This document shows positions 3,042 through 37,722 of a stretch of 40,392 nt of DNA, one piece after another. How positions within the stretch are numbered: the first letter of the stretch is position 1; each line of letters starts with the position of its first letter. The notes under the pieces are model-generated. The model ran no database searches, was not told the origin of the DNA, and saw nothing but the letters and a program-made list of their open reading frames with translations. A program made the position numbers and the translations under genes. This DNA is from a virus: IMG/VR virus record IMGVR_UViG_3300028800_002446, positions 1 to 40,392 of that record; one strand, given 5' to 3'.

Positions 3042-3791
3042 ATGATGACACAACAGGAACTGTCGCTCAAATCCGATTCTGCGGGCATTGCCCAGATCAC
3101 GAATCTCGGTCTGTGCGATATCGCGATCGACCGCGCGCTCTCGCGCGGCGCCAACCTGCCGGGCCTCGTGTGCTTCTATGGGCCGTCAGGCTACGGCAAG
3201 AGCATGGCCGCGAACTATGTCGCGAATTTCCGCCGTGCGCGCTACGTGCAGGCCAAGTCGGTCTGGACGAAGAAGCACTTCCTGAAGGCCGTGCTGTTTG
3301 AGATGGGCATCAAGCCGGCGGGGACGATTGCGGAGATGGCCGATCAGGTGGCCGAGGAGCTGGCCACGAGCAGCCGGCCGCTAATCATCGACGAGATGGA
3401 CCACCTCGTCGATCGTAACGCGGTCGAGCTGGTACGCGATCTGTACGAATCCAGTCAGGCCGCAATCCTGATGATCGGCGAAGAAGGTCTGCCGGCAAAA
3501 CTGAAGCAGTGGGAGCGTATGCATGGCCGTGTGCTGGCGTGGGTACCAGCGCAGCCGGTCACGCTGGACGACGCGCGCCGGCTTGCATCTTTCTACTGCC
3601 CCGGCATCAGCGTCAAAGACGATCTGCTCGCGCGGCTGGTCGAGCTGGCCCATGGTTCCGTGCGACGCGTGTGCGTGAATCTCGCACAGATCAAGGAAGA
3701 AGCGCTGGTTGCCGGTGAAGACGTGGTGAGCCTGGCTGCATGGGGCAAGCGCGAGCTGTACACCGGCGAAGCGCCGAAGCGGAGGGTGTGA
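3042..3791 (+). CDS. B: Transposition target protein, MuB-type AAA+ ATPase
   Basis: A 249-residue AAA+ ATPase placed directly after the transposase, as MuB is. Walker A is GPSGYGKS (residues 47-54) and Walker B is PLIIDEMD (113-120). A sensor-1-like strand, AAILMIGEEGLP, follows. In Mu this protein binds target DNA non-specifically, activates the transposase and gives target immunity. It lacks the long N-terminal HTH extension of MuB (312 residues) and is nearer the TniB-like short form. The frame is open from a GTG at 3,012 that overlaps the transposase stop, but AAGG at 3,035-3,038 better serves the tandem ATGs at 3,042/3,045, so the start is uncertain by ten codons. Confidence 0.93.
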   Translation: MMTQQELSLKSDSAGIAQITNLGLCDIAIDRALSRGANLPGLVCFYGPSGYGKSMAANYVANFRRARYVQAKSVWTKKHFLKAVLFEMGIKPAGTIAEMADQVAEELATSSRPLIIDEMDHLVDRNAVELVRDLYESSQAAILMIGEEGLPAKLKQWERMHGRVLAWVPAQPVTLDDARRLASFYCPGISVKDDLLARLVELAHGSVRRVCVNLAQIKEEALVAGEDVVSLAAWGKRELYTGEAPKRRV

Positions 3792-7867: not shown

Positions 7868-7949
7868 CTTTTATGTCATCTCGAACGGCATCGCTTTCCT
7901 TCTCTATCTGTGCCGAAGGAGGCTGCAGCGCTGGTGGAGGCCGCAATGA
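7860..7949 (+). CDS. Candidate 29-aa membrane microprotein
   Basis: This short frame runs from ATG 7,860 to TGA 7,947-7,949. It starts inside the last codons of the DUF2786 gene and its stop overlaps the GemA ATG (ATGA). GAGG lies seven bases before the ATG. The product has one hydrophobic stretch (FYVISNGIAFLLYLC) followed by a very basic aromatic tail (RRRLQRWWRP), a typical positive-inside single-pass layout. The exact junctions on both sides match the coupling style of the rest of the operon, which argues for a real gene. It may instead be a coupling leader for gemA. Confidence 0.45.
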   Translation: MPDFYVISNGIAFLLYLCRRRLQRWWRPQ

Positions 7950-8347
7950 AAATCTCGAAATCAACCCTTGCGAAGATCCACATCGCGAAGCAACAGCTCG
8001 TGATGGACGATGACAGCTACCGTGCCATGCTGCGCTCGGTGGGCGGCGTCGAGTCGGCAAAGGATCTGGACGCCCGCAGCGCGGCGCAGGTACTGCGCCA
8101 CCTTGAGCGTTGTGGCTTTCAGCCGAAAGGTGGTGGCCACCGCCCTCGCGTAGCGGGCAGTCGTGCCGCGCAGTTGGGCAAGATCGAGGCGCTGCTCGCC
8201 GACGCTGGCCGTCCGTGGGAATACGTTAACGGCATGGTTAAACGCGTCTGCAAGGTTGATGCGATCGAGTTCTGCGATAGCGAGATGCTGGCCAGACTGA
8301 TTGCCGCGCTTCAGATCGACGCCAACCGCAGGAGGGCACGCGCATGA
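7946..8347 (+). CDS. gemA: GemA/gp16 family regulatory protein (DUF1018)
   Basis: A 133-residue protein. The N-terminus STLAKIHIAKQQLVMDDDSY and the following RAMLRSVGGVESAKDLDA are diagnostic of the Mu gp16/GemA family. The second half (IEALLADAGRPWEYVNGMVKRVC...IEF) is the usual C-terminal motif. Mu GemA is linked to modulation of host gene expression and DNA topology; the mechanism is not settled. ATG 7,946 is chosen because the family starts with K-x-K/L-A-x-IHIAK close to the initiator; GGAGG at 7,936-7,940 is well placed. The stop overlaps the mor start (ATGA). Confidence 0.9.
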   Translation: MKISKSTLAKIHIAKQQLVMDDDSYRAMLRSVGGVESAKDLDARSAAQVLRHLERCGFQPKGGGHRPRVAGSRAAQLGKIEALLADAGRPWEYVNGMVKRVCKVDAIEFCDSEMLARLIAALQIDANRRRARA

Positions 8348-14262: not shown

Positions 14263-15879
14263 ATGCCCCAGATCGTCGATGTGAACGGCAACCCGATCCA
14301 GTCGCAGGTGCTGCGCGAGCAGCAGACTGCCCAGCTCGGCTGGCTAAAGTCGAGCTACGAGGAGCACCCGTCACTGCGGCTCACGCCACAGAAGCTCTAC
14401 CAGATCATGGAGGCGGCCGAACTCGGCTACCTGTTGCCACAGTCCGACCTGTTCACGGACATGGAGGAAAAGGACGGTCATATCTTCGCCGAGATGAGCA
14501 AGCGCAAGCGCGTGCTGCTCACGCTTGACTGGGATGTGCTGCCGCCGCGCGACGCATCGGCGACTGAGCGCAAGCTCGCGGCGTGGGTGCGCGAGACGCT
14601 GCAGGATATGACGTTCTTCGAGGACATGCTGCTCGATGCGCTCGACGCTATCGGCCACGGGTTCTCTGCGCTTGAAATCACCTGGAGCCGCATCGAGAAC
14701 ATGTGGCTTCCAACTGCACTCACGCGCCGGCCGCAGCGGTGGTTCATGACGCCGTGGGACGATCGCGACAACATCCGTCTGCGCGGCATGGAGGTGATGG
14801 GTACGCCGCTGTGGCCGTTCGGGTGGGTGTTGCACAAGCACCGCGCCAAGTCGGGCTATGTGGCGCGCAGCGGCCTGCACCGCATTCTCGCGTGGCCGTA
14901 CCTCTTCAAGAACTACGGCGTGCGCGACCTGATGGAGCTGCTTGAAATCTACGGCATCCCGCTGCGCGTGGGCCGCTATCCGGGCGGCGCAACCGATGAC
15001 GAGAAGGCTGCGCTGCTGCGCGCCGTCACCGGCATCGGCCACAACGCGGCCGGCATCATCCCGCAGGAGATGCTGATCGAGTTCAAGGAAGCCGCGAGCA
15101 CGTCGGGCCACAGTCCGCACCTCGCGCTCGTCGACTATATGGAGCGCACGCAGTCCAAGGTGATTCTGGGCGGCACGCTCACGAGTCAGGCGGACGGCAA
15201 GTCGTCGACGCACGCGCTCGGCAACGTGCATAACGAGGTGCGCCACGACCTCATGGTGTCGGACGCACGGCAGCTCGAATCGACGCTCACGCGCGACCTG
15301 ATCTATCCGATCGTCGCGCTCAACAAAGGTGTGATCGACATCCGGCGTCTGCCGCGCCTCACGTTCGAAACGCGCGAGCCGGAGGATCTGAAGCTGTACG
15401 CGGACTCCCTGCCGAAGCTCGTAGCGATGGGCCTGCCAATTCCGGTGGGCTGGGCGCGCGAGAAACTCTCCATCCCGGCCGCTGACGGTGATGAGCCGAT
15501 CCTCTCGATCCCTCAGCCGCTGCAGGCACTTCCGCCCGAGTTCCGGCCGGCACCCGCGCCCGACGCACAGCCGCCCGTGAAGCAGGCGCAGATGACGTAT
15601 CGCGCCGTGCTCACCAACCGGCGCGGCGAGACGGTCTATCCGGATCAGGCCCAGCTCGACGATACGATCGACGGGCTGCCGTCTGCACCTCTCGCGGCCG
15701 GCATGGACAAGCTGCTCGCGCCGGTGATCCAGGCGATCAGGAACGGCGAGACACCCGACAGCGCGATCGAGGCGTTGCTGACGGCGCAGCCGGACATGGA
15801 TGAGACCACGCTCGCCGAGCTGCTCGCGCGCGCCATGTTCGTCGCCGACATCTGGGGTCGCGTCAATGGCGGGAATTGA
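14263..15879 (+). CDS. Portal protein (DUF935, Mu gp29-like)
   Basis: A 538-residue portal. The DUF935 features are clear: QLGWLKSSYEEHPSLRLTP near the start, the region LYQIMEAAELGYLLPQSDLF, AIGHGFSALEITW (residues ~129-141), FKNYGVRDLMELLEIYGIPL (~210-230), and ILGGTLTSQADGKSSTHALG (~298-317). Twelve copies should form the head-tail connector and docking site for the terminase. AAGGAAAAGAG precedes the ATG. The last 14 bases overlap the next gene. Confidence 0.95.
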   Translation: MPQIVDVNGNPIQSQVLREQQTAQLGWLKSSYEEHPSLRLTPQKLYQIMEAAELGYLLPQSDLFTDMEEKDGHIFAEMSKRKRVLLTLDWDVLPPRDASATERKLAAWVRETLQDMTFFEDMLLDALDAIGHGFSALEITWSRIENMWLPTALTRRPQRWFMTPWDDRDNIRLRGMEVMGTPLWPFGWVLHKHRAKSGYVARSGLHRILAWPYLFKNYGVRDLMELLEIYGIPLRVGRYPGGATDDEKAALLRAVTGIGHNAAGIIPQEMLIEFKEAASTSGHSPHLALVDYMERTQSKVILGGTLTSQADGKSSTHALGNVHNEVRHDLMVSDARQLESTLTRDLIYPIVALNKGVIDIRRLPRLTFETREPEDLKLYADSLPKLVAMGLPIPVGWAREKLSIPAADGDEPILSIPQPLQALPPEFRPAPAPDAQPPVKQAQMTYRAVLTNRRGETVYPDQAQLDDTIDGLPSAPLAAGMDKLLAPVIQAIRNGETPDSAIEALLTAQPDMDETTLAELLARAMFVADIWGRVNGGN

Positions 15880-17182
15880 CCTGCAGTATGCGATCGGCCT
15901 GCCGCCCGAGCAGGCAATCCGGTTCTTCGAATCAAAGGGATACCAGCTCGGATTCAAATGGCAGGACGTGTGGGCCGAGGCGCATGCCCGCGCATTCACG
16001 GTCGCGGGCGTGATGAAGGTCGATGTGCTGCAGGACATCCGGCAAGCGCTCACGGATGCGTTAAAAAACGGCAAGACGCTCGCGCAGTTTAAAGACGAGC
16101 TGATGCCCGTCTTGCAGAAGAAGGGATGGCTTGGGCGCGGCGACGTCGTCGACGGCGACACGGGCGAGATACAGGGGCGGCGTCTCACGCCGCGCCGGCT
16201 CAACACGATCTTCCAGACGAACATGCAGTCGGCGTACATGGCCGGGCGCTTCGCCTCGCAGATGGAGAGCGTCGGCGAGCGGCCGTACTGGGAATACGTC
16301 GCGGTGCTCGACAATCGAACGCGGCCGGCGCACGCGGCGCTGTCCGGTTCGATCTACCGGTACGACGACCCGTTCTGGGCGACGTTCTACCCGCCGAACG
16401 GGTACAACTGCCGGTGCCGCGTCCGCACGCGCGCACGAGCCTGGGTCGAACAAAACGGCGTGCCGGTACGGAACAGCGACGGGCACATTGTCGAAGTCGA
16501 GATCGTCGATCGCACCGGCATAAGGCGGCCGGCGCTTGCGTACTCCGATCCGGCGACGGGAAAAAAGGTGCTGCCCGACCCCGGCTTTGGATTCAATCCT
16601 GGCCGCGAGTGGCAGCGGCCGTTCACGCCGCCGCCGCTCGACACGCTCCCGCGCACGTTTCCGGTTGGTGTCGATCTGCCGGAGCTACCCATGCCGACAA
16701 CGGTACCGGCATCGAGCCTGCTGCCGTCGAACCTCGCGCCCGAGCAGTACGCGCAGGCGTTTCTCCACGAGTTCGGCATCCAGCCTGGCCAGACGAAAGT
16801 CTACGAGGACGTCGCCCATTCCCGGCTGGCCATCTCCGACGATCTGTTCAAGGCGGGCGACGGCAGCTGGAAGGCGGATAAGGATGGTCGCGGCCCGTAC
16901 ATGGCGCTGCTCGCCCGTGCAGTGCAGGCGCCGGACGAAATCTGGTTGCGCTGGGAGCAAAGCCGCGACCAGCCCGACAAGTGGCTGCTCAAGCGCCGCT
17001 ATATCAAGTCGTGGCTTGTCGACGGACAGCAGGGGCCGCAATACGGGTTGAGCGTGTTCGAATTCGGGCAGGACGGCTGGTCGGCTTCGACGTCAATGAT
17101 GTCGAATGCGGATCGCGGCCCGGATGCGCGGCGTCGTTATATCCAGAAGCAGCGCGATGGCTTTCTGGCATACCGGAAATAG
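15866..17182 (+). CDS. Minor head protein (Mu gp30/F-like) with C-terminal PBECR-like nuclease domain
   Basis: A 438-residue protein. Residues ~55-195 are the Mu F head-morphogenesis domain, with VLDNRTRPAHAALSGSIY (148-165) and PPNGYNCRCRVRTRA (176-190). After a Pro-rich linker (~250-290), residues ~295-438 resemble the phage Barnase-EndoU-ColicinE5/RelE-like (PBECR) group, with KVYEDVAHSRLAISDDLF, GRGPYMALLARAVQAPDEIW and a C-terminal RRRYIQKQRDGFLAYRK. Known minor head proteins of this type are carried in the virion, so the domain may be delivered with DNA. The nuclease call rests on pattern memory only. ATG 15,866 lies inside the portal gene. Confidence 0.88.
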   Translation: MAGIDLQYAIGLPPEQAIRFFESKGYQLGFKWQDVWAEAHARAFTVAGVMKVDVLQDIRQALTDALKNGKTLAQFKDELMPVLQKKGWLGRGDVVDGDTGEIQGRRLTPRRLNTIFQTNMQSAYMAGRFASQMESVGERPYWEYVAVLDNRTRPAHAALSGSIYRYDDPFWATFYPPNGYNCRCRVRTRARAWVEQNGVPVRNSDGHIVEVEIVDRTGIRRPALAYSDPATGKKVLPDPGFGFNPGREWQRPFTPPPLDTLPRTFPVGVDLPELPMPTTVPASSLLPSNLAPEQYAQAFLHEFGIQPGQTKVYEDVAHSRLAISDDLFKAGDGSWKADKDGRGPYMALLARAVQAPDEIWLRWEQSRDQPDKWLLKRRYIKSWLVDGQQGPQYGLSVFEFGQDGWSASTSMMSNADRGPDARRRYIQKQRDGFLAYRK

Positions 17183-17185
17183 AAA

Positions 17186-17213
17186 GGCCCGCGACGCCGA
17201 CTCGTTGCGGGCC
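17186..17213 (+). terminator. Intercistronic hairpin after minor head gene
   Basis: GGCCCGC (17,186-17,192) pairs with GCGGGCC (17,207-17,213); the stem can be extended inward by GAC/GTT with one wobble pair, leaving an eight-base loop. It starts four bases after the stop codon. No T-tract follows, so it may stabilise mRNA or attenuate transcription and not be a full terminator. Confidence 0.45.
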
Positions 17214-17285
17214 ACCGTGCAGTTCCTTTGGACGCGCCAGTCGGGAGCCTGTGCGACTGCAATCGGGGTAACTGGAGAATAGCAC

Positions 17286-17861
17286 ATGATCGAAATCGCA
17301 ATTGACACCAGCGGGCTGGAAGCGACCCTCGAACGCCTCGTCGCTGCTGTCGCCGACGCCAGTCCGGTGATGCGGCAGATTGGCGACATCATGTGGGACG
17401 CCGTCGAGGAAAATTTCGCGCAGCAGGGCCGGCCGCGCTGGCTCGGGCTGAAGCCATCGACGCTGCAGCAGCGCGTCGGCAGCCAGCTCGGCAAGGGGCG
17501 CGGCGTGCTGAAGTCCGGCGCATGGAGCCTGCAGGTCGGGCAGCGTGTTGCCCGCTCGATCAAGATCCTGCAGGCGTCCGGGCGACTTGCCTCCAGTATC
17601 ACGCCGAGCTACGACGCCACGAGCGCGCGCGTGGGCACTAACGTCGTCTATGCGGCGATCCACCAGTTCGGCGGCACGACGAAACCGCACGTGATCCGTC
17701 CGAAGAACGCCAAGGCGCTTCACTTCGGCGGCATCTTCGCGAAACAGGTCAATCACCCCGGCTCGAAAATCCCCGCGCGACCGTTTCTCGCCATCACGAC
17801 TTCGGACGGTATCGCGATCGAGGAAGCGATGGCAAACTACCTGCGCAACGTGGTCGGATGA
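17286..17861 (+). CDS. Phage virion morphogenesis protein (Mu gpG-like)
   Basis: A 191-residue protein of the phage virion morphogenesis/tail-completion family: the N-terminal IDTSGLEATLERLVAAV helix, GDIMWDAVEENFAQQGRPRW (residues ~36-56), then YAAIHQFGGTTKPHVI (~121-136) and a C-terminal RPFLAITTSDG. In Mu, gpG is involved in head-tail joining or fiber-related maturation; head completion is the usual annotation. Upstream lies a 103-base gap with the hairpin and CTGGAGAATAGCAC before the ATG. The gene is intact. Confidence 0.9.
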   Translation: MIEIAIDTSGLEATLERLVAAVADASPVMRQIGDIMWDAVEENFAQQGRPRWLGLKPSTLQQRVGSQLGKGRGVLKSGAWSLQVGQRVARSIKILQASGRLASSITPSYDATSARVGTNVVYAAIHQFGGTTKPHVIRPKNAKALHFGGIFAKQVNHPGSKIPARPFLAITTSDGIAIEEAMANYLRNVVG

Positions 17862-18067
17862 CCAGTTCCGAAATCGGGCGCTGGGAGCCGTTGGCGGGGT
17901 TGCTACGCGCCGTACCCTATCGTTGCCCCCGGCGACCCCGTTAAACCCCCGTTAAAACGCGCCGGATCATCCTTCCGGTTCCGCATGCTCACCCGATAGC
18001 CGGGTGACGCCTCCGAACTGACACCGTTCCACTCTTTTCTTGCCGTGCCGGTCAACAGAATGACGGC
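17862..18067 (+). promoter_or_regulatory. Gap before protease gene with 7-bp inverted repeat
   Basis: This 206-base gap is the largest inside the head genes. It holds a perfect inverted repeat TCACCCG (17,989-17,995) / CGGGTGA (18,001-18,007) with a five-base spacer. No convincing -35/-10 pair and no SD-like site directly before ATG 18,068 is seen. It may carry an activator-dependent late promoter for the protease-capsid genes, as late Mu genes have several such promoters. That is inference. Confidence 0.35.
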
Positions 18068-37645: not shown

Positions 37646-37722
37646 TGGGGTGGCTGATGGGACTCGAACCCACGACGACAGGAATCACAATCCTGGACTC
37701 TACCAACTGAGCTACAGCCACC
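37646..37722 (-). tRNA. tRNA-His (anticodon GTG)
   Basis: The 77-base cloverleaf reads on the minus strand. The acceptor pair is GTGGCTG/CAGCCAC, the D arm contains AGCTCAGTTGGTAGAG, the anticodon loop is TTGTGAT with GTG at 37,686-37,688, and the T arm contains GGTTCGAGTCCC. An encoded CCA is present at 37,646-37,648. The extra G at -1 opposite C73, diagnostic of histidine tRNA, is encoded (37,722). It is intact and close to the phage right end. Confidence 0.97.

Follow-up and report, generated by a model that had tools for sequence, protein, structure and literature searches.

The PBECR and MuF-C domains of phage polyvalent proteins (PF18810, PF18812 and PF18819) were described by Iyer et al. 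2017 (PMC5512222). That paper predicts for them a metal-independent RNase fold with an active site formed by a helix His and a strand-4 Ser/Thr, reports a sixth PBECR family with Arg instead of His, recognises active and inactive versions, an inactive one being that of Mu gp30, and already describes PBECR domains fused to MuF. In the MuF polymorphic toxins (Jamet et al. 2017; Bxa, Apk2) a MuF delivery domain is joined to an exchangeable C-terminal effector, and the small downstream immunity protein is exchanged along with it. Type III toxin-antitoxin systems (ToxIN, CptIN, AbiQ) combine an endoribonuclease-type protein with a pseudoknotted non-coding RNA, the antitoxin being arranged as tandem repeats that precede the toxin gene in one operon, behind a terminator. 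In the AbiF/RCd22 pair of a C. difficile prophage (PMC12373285) a phage-encoded toxic protein is neutralised by its cognate structured RNA, and phages also carry tRNAs and tRNA-like RNAs.

The locus described here lies in a window of 40,392 nucleotides, positions 1 to 40,392 of the IMG/VR virus record IMGVR_UViG_3300028800_002446. It shares with the first system the domain and its C-terminal position on MuF; an RNA partner is not described in the available part of Iyer et al., whereas here the integrity of the domain is tied to an adjacent structured RNA. The delivery domain, the exchangeable effector and the co-exchanged adjoining unit recall the MuF polymorphic toxins, but an RNA element stands where those have a small downstream immunity protein. 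A predicted pseudoknotted RNA adjoins the protein gene as in type III systems; unlike in these, it is a single element, downstream and apparently antisense (minus strand favoured) rather than a set of tandem upstream repeats in one operon, and the protein is a virion component. The likeness to AbiF/RCd22 would lie in the neutralisation by a cognate RNA proposed below, although AbiF belongs to another protein family and is no head protein. Sister elements reach the Rfam tRNA threshold, yet they differ from phage tRNAs in a degenerate anticodon arm, in lying antisense between two head genes and in being tied to a nuclease motif. The protein-coding features of the locus are as follows.

14263..15879, plus strand: Mu-type portal protein (PF06074), upstream neighbour of muF
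15866..17182, plus strand: muF/gpF homologue, minor head protein with C-terminal PBECR2; a single open frame of 438 aa (Pfam, PHROG)
16031..16423, plus strand: Phage_Mu_F domain (PF04233), residues 56-186 (Pfam, E=2.1e-28)
16757..17176, plus strand: PBECR2 domain (PF18810), residues 298-437 (Pfam, AlphaFold model)
16871..16891, plus strand: helix motif K336-x2-K339-x2-R342, candidate active-site or RNA-contact residues; R or H at the R342 position in every element-carrying PBECR2 locus
17078..17095, plus strand: strand 4, W405...S408-T409-S410, candidate Ser/Thr of the BECR active site (homologue alignment, AlphaFold model)
17286..17861, plus strand: gpG homologue (Phage_tail_S, PF05069), the next late gene after muF

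An earlier note on this DNA, made from the sequence alone, had read the muF product as a Mu F domain followed by a C-terminal PBECR-type nuclease domain, and the profiles agree: the C-terminal region belongs to PBECR2, with 104.2 bits against a cut-off of 27.1 (E=6.7e-30, residues 298-437), and residues 4-437 match PHROG 220, "minor head protein and DNA pilot" (E=9.5e-100). Such a fusion is ordinary by itself because it has already been published (Iyer et al. 2017). The AlphaFold model of the domain is confident (pLDDT 86.9; helix, four strands, helix, strand), but no solved BECR nuclease was matched significantly by Foldseek in the PDB, where the best hit had E=0.07 and the folds were unrelated; a Foldseek search of BFVD was likewise without a significant hit, and a PDB sequence search and a defence-system library search returned no match. 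For the sister domain MuF_C, Foldseek placed HigB2, MqsR and a CDI chain on top at E=0.16-0.82, which is not significant. Comparison of the PBECR2 and MuF_C profiles detected neither similarity nor common ancestry, and the two domains may therefore be analogous rather than homologous.

The His that is canonical in the N-terminal helix of PBECR domains is absent, and its position is occupied by R342. The latter is the constant helix residue in a wider set of 73 sequences, usually inside K336-x2-K339-x2-R342, and W405 and R430 are nearly constant in the same set. Among 40 non-redundant full-length homologues W405 is invariant and the strand-4 Ser/Thr, represented in the window protein by S408, T409 and S410, varies. 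The most obvious His, H301 of FLHEFG, was rejected as a catalytic residue, its column holding H, Q, R, G and others in the 40 homologues. A conserved catalytic candidate thus exists in R342, although the conspicuous His is freely variable; the conserved helix Arg makes the domain fit the Arg-for-His sixth family of Iyer et al. 2017. RNase activity of the window domain is plausible as a prediction from these residues.

The earlier note had also stated that no immunity gene is evident beside muF. This holds for proteins: gpG is the next gene in the window and in nearly all domain-bearing relatives, no immunity ORF was found 3' of muF, and the gap of about 100 nt contains chance ORFs only. What had been missed is a structured RNA at 17180-17266, so that the interpretation as a whole is upheld in part, for its domain call. 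Behind similar MuF parts the relatives carry PBECR2, PBECR3 (PF18812), a MuF_C-like domain (PF18819) or no domain; the combination of MuF with an exchangeable C-terminal domain is thus that of the MuF polymorphic toxins, minus their small downstream immunity ORF, and a degenerate C-terminal domain is kept in Mu, D3112 and Burkholderia phages. Loci L014-L043 and similar ones, mostly from Gastranaerophilales and rumen genomes, encode a MuF of about 254 aa without C-terminal domain, and in most of them a conserved ORF of 260-280 aa resembling a DNA adenine methylase lies between muF and gpG. In L197, L362, L363 and L364 the PBECR3/MuF_C matches fall within open frames of about 2000-2900 aa, which are likely polyvalent proteins.

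The RNA element is 87 nt long and lies in the 103 nt that separate the muF stop (17182) from the start of G (17286). Its parts are listed here on the strand considered likely.

17180..17266, minus strand: conserved pseudoknotted RNA element, candidate RNA antidote or partner of PBECR2 (covariation; covariance model R1, 99.8 bits, E=2e-18, a score that is not independent because the window is among the 16 sequences from which R1 was built)
17186..17213, minus strand: stem H1, 10 bp with an 8-nt loop; a T-rich stretch follows H1 on the minus strand
17197..17202, minus strand: H1 loop bases pairing with 17239-17244 in a 6-bp pseudoknot (covariation)
17239..17244, minus strand: pseudoknot partner of the H1 loop
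17218..17261, minus strand: closing stem H2, 17218-17224 with 17255-17261 (covariation)
17276..17281, minus strand: weak -10-like hexamer TATTCT (family consensus TATACT/TATAAT)

In an alignment of 20 sequences the whole structure (H1, H2 and the loop-loop pseudoknot) has 88% of its cells paired, and 16 of 23 pairs are changed on both sides. The closing stem H2 is paired in 97.9% of cells with five such pairs, the pseudoknot in 92.5% with three, one pair running from A-U through G-C to C-G. The covariation of the window-type structure including the pseudoknot amounted to 0.483, against 0.184 when shuffled (0/500) and at most 0.115 for slid versions; a minus-strand version of the analysis supports the element and H1 as well. 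This covariation demands a folded RNA. Rfam gave no match for the window element, which stays below the tRNA (RF00005) gathering score. A scan of 73 loci (630 kb) with R1 found 24 elements, all on the minus strand and all 3' of muF, and none in the loci without the helix motif; a genome-wide R1 search for stray copies was empty, but it carries no information, as no positive control was picked up either. In L006, where the motif is intact, a window-type copy (7904-7992, minus strand) lies 593 nt away behind an inserted stretch. What is new here is this structured RNA next to muF and its tie to the nuclease-domain motif, the domain fusion itself being known; no description of an RNA in the muF-G gap was found among open-licence papers, and it may have been described elsewhere.

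The muF-G gap was measured in 273 non-redundant muF loci in which G was located by profile. Where MuF has no C-terminal domain and G is adjacent, the gap is at most 30 nt, and all 28 such loci are without the element. Domain-bearing loci show a gap of about 90-150 nt when the helix motif is intact and a short or overlapping junction when it is broken. Across 210 non-redundant loci motif and element occurred together in 136, the element without the motif in none, the motif without the element in three and neither in 71 (Fisher p=5e-53). On supported branches of a tree of the MuF N-part the association recurs in 13-14 independent pairs, with no pair opposing it (p ~0.0002); for domain-bearing loci only, the four counts are 136, 0, 3 and 43, and 12-13 of 13 pairs agree (p ~0.0005). 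The three exceptions, L003, L100 and L115 from Burkholderia, keep R342, have lost both lysines and lack the element. For L123, whose G start had been called wrongly, presence of the element was assigned by visual inspection, and loci were left unscored when a further gene intervened between muF and G or when no G was found (for example L006, L010, L011, L049, L170, L182, L191 and L194). The motif rule had been chosen after the first data set was seen; it was therefore frozen and tried on new loci, drawn from three further scans and one genome search. The 48 scorable held-out loci comprised 3 with both and 45 with neither, with 0/48 discordant, which is a weaker test than the count suggests because negatives make up most of the set and many of its members stand close to D3112. 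One locus, L421, encodes a protein 67% identical to that of D3112 and has an intact RRH motif and the element, and the D3112 clade has neither. Rhodobacter phage RcapMu likewise combines PBECR2 with an element in the gap. The coupling of the active-site helix motif and the RNA element across the family is well supported.

This coupling bears on the view that the domain is without catalytic activity and serves the head as a structural or RNA-binding module, the role proposed for Mu gp30, and that the element is an unrelated conserved DNA or RNA feature of the F-G junction. The missing helix His, the variable strand-4 Ser/Thr, the lack of a significant structural match to any nuclease and the retention of a degenerate domain in Mu, D3112 and Burkholderia phages would all suit it. 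Nevertheless R342 is conserved in distant relatives, the element is gone whenever the motif is lost, and the covariation calls for a folded RNA, so that we regard this view as very improbable.

The transcribed strand was approached through promoters and pairing. Sigma-70-like promoters scoring at least 9/12 and reading into the element on the minus strand are present in 40 of 83 element loci, as compared to 3 of 83 on the plus strand, about 6% in shuffles and 2 of 47 element-less loci; the -10 boxes alone show the same minus-strand pattern. In the window a simple promoter and terminator scan found no 9/12 promoter and no -35 on the minus strand. Wobble pairs of the window-type structure favour minus by 18:3 once a stem-end pair that is never formed on that strand is excluded, and stand at 18:19 with all pairs. 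The minus strand is graded as likely only, given the weak -10 of the window, the missing -35, folding energies that leave the strand undecided and the dependence of the wobble count on one pair.

A resemblance to tRNA appears in other members of the family. Although a first set of sister loci gave no Rfam match at gathering, in MuF_C-type relatives of Mu the gap element exceeds the Rfam tRNA gathering score in 7 of 10 loci, on the minus strand only, and ARAGORN called "tRNA-???" in two of them. These tRNA-like genes, opposite in strand to muF and G and odd in their anticodon arm, are those of L282 (3829-3901, minus), L283 (3828-3900, minus), L261, L263, L265, L271 and L276. T-arm and acceptor geometry is found on the minus strand in 19 of 86 loci and never on the plus strand; by class it occurs in 15 of 28 KH/RH loci, 4 of 18 PBECR3 loci and 0 of 40 PBECR2 loci, so that the RNA type of the window is without it. 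In L425, with an intact RRH motif, the minus strand carries a tRNA-like sequence, CGGTTCAACTCCG enclosed by a GTGGGTGCAG/CTGCACCCAC stem, some 200 nt beyond the point where muF was called to stop; muF seems to be frameshifted in that region.

Strand and shape also bear on a regulatory account, in which the nuclease would cut at the element itself, or the element would act as an antisense regulator, and the RNase would set muF-G mRNA levels, without any immunity. The position of the element at the muF 3' end speaks for this, a nuclease target would vanish along with the active site, and RegB-type phage nucleases cut phage mRNA, as cited in PMC5512222. Neither a minus-strand promoter nor a tRNA shape is predicted by this account, however, and element-less phages have G translationally adjacent with no visible compensation; we judge it quite unlikely.

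Among close relatives, domain and RNA come and go together as a single cassette. In the close pairs L263/L269, L089/L102 and L116/L117 the two differ together. L263 and L269 share 95% identity in the MuF N-part and 90% identity in their DNA as far as base 3455, after which the sequences are unalignable through domain and RNA, the alignment returning at the G start; L089/L102 show the same pattern, and in L116/L117 domain and RNA are deleted together. The same coupling and cassette behaviour would be expected if the RNA were a functional partner, which PBECR would bind and perhaps trim and which would enter the virion in a ribonucleoprotein with MuF and serve, once injected, as a guide, a decoy or a small RNA in the new host. 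The tRNA-like shape in related loci is compatible with such a partner, as is the RNA-binding role suggested for the inactive Mu domain by Iyer 2017 (PMC5512222). A packaged RNA should come from the late (plus) strand, yet promoters and tRNA matches indicate minus, and no packaging signal is known; a packaged partner is thus unlikely, if one to be kept in mind.

The restriction of the RNA to loci with intact key residues suggests that it is the missing antidote or partner, and a nuclease-antidote pair is the simplest account of the joint retention and loss of motif and RNA, their movement as a cassette and a promoter independent of the late operon. We put at about even the case for a two-part module composed of a PBECR2 effector on MuF and a likely opposite-strand RNA, the RNA being most likely an antidote; it may instead be a packaged partner or a target, either of which would give the same coupling. 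In the proposed module the phage head would carry PBECR2, on MuF, as a BECR-type RNase-like effector, and the element would be the gene of a small RNA, most probably encoded by the opposite strand. The RNA, an antidote similar to those of type III toxin-antitoxin systems and tRNA-shaped in some relatives, would bind the nuclease and keep it in check in cells that produce or harbour the phage, and the nuclease would act only after injection into a cell without the RNA. Transcription of the RNA, direct binding, inhibition, RNase activity, injection and the target (tRNA or mRNA) are all inferred in this model. Against an antidote count the single-copy, downstream and apparently antisense RNA, unlike type III antitoxins, the weak promoter of the window, the three Burkholderia exceptions, the post hoc motif rule and the lack of tRNA likeness in the window type. 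Somewhat more tentatively, the Mu-like phage family may be one in which virion BECR nucleases are neutralised (or armed) by antisense-encoded tRNA-mimic or pseudoknot RNAs exchanged as a cassette, that is, RNA immunity for a polymorphic toxin.

The earlier note had instead proposed a nuclease injected against host or rival RNA; on such a reading a late protein confined to the capsid would require no antidote. In favour of this proposal, a Mu lysogen does not express the late operon, and injection has been put forward for MuF toxins (PMC5576092). Characterised MuF toxins nevertheless carry immunity (PMC11699363) and the co-inherited RNA holds that place here, which leaves the proposal only a slight probability.

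The nuclease-antidote module would explain, in specific terms that lend themselves to testing, why a lysogen can live with an RNase-like protein of the phage head, and it would give a function to the domain that has stood without one since its description in Mu gp30. Should the RNA prove to be an antidote, one branch of the MuF effectors would rely on RNA immunity, and in Mu and D3112 toxin and antidote would both have been lost naturally. The tRNA-like shape in sister phages makes tRNA a possible target.

Two further features of the window were recorded. A gap of about 206 nt (17862-18067) separates G from a protease-like gene, and Mu has its annotated gyrase cut site at the equivalent place. 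A tRNA-His gene (anticodon GTG; 37646-37721, minus strand), identified by ARAGORN and Rfam in agreement, lies towards the right end of the record.
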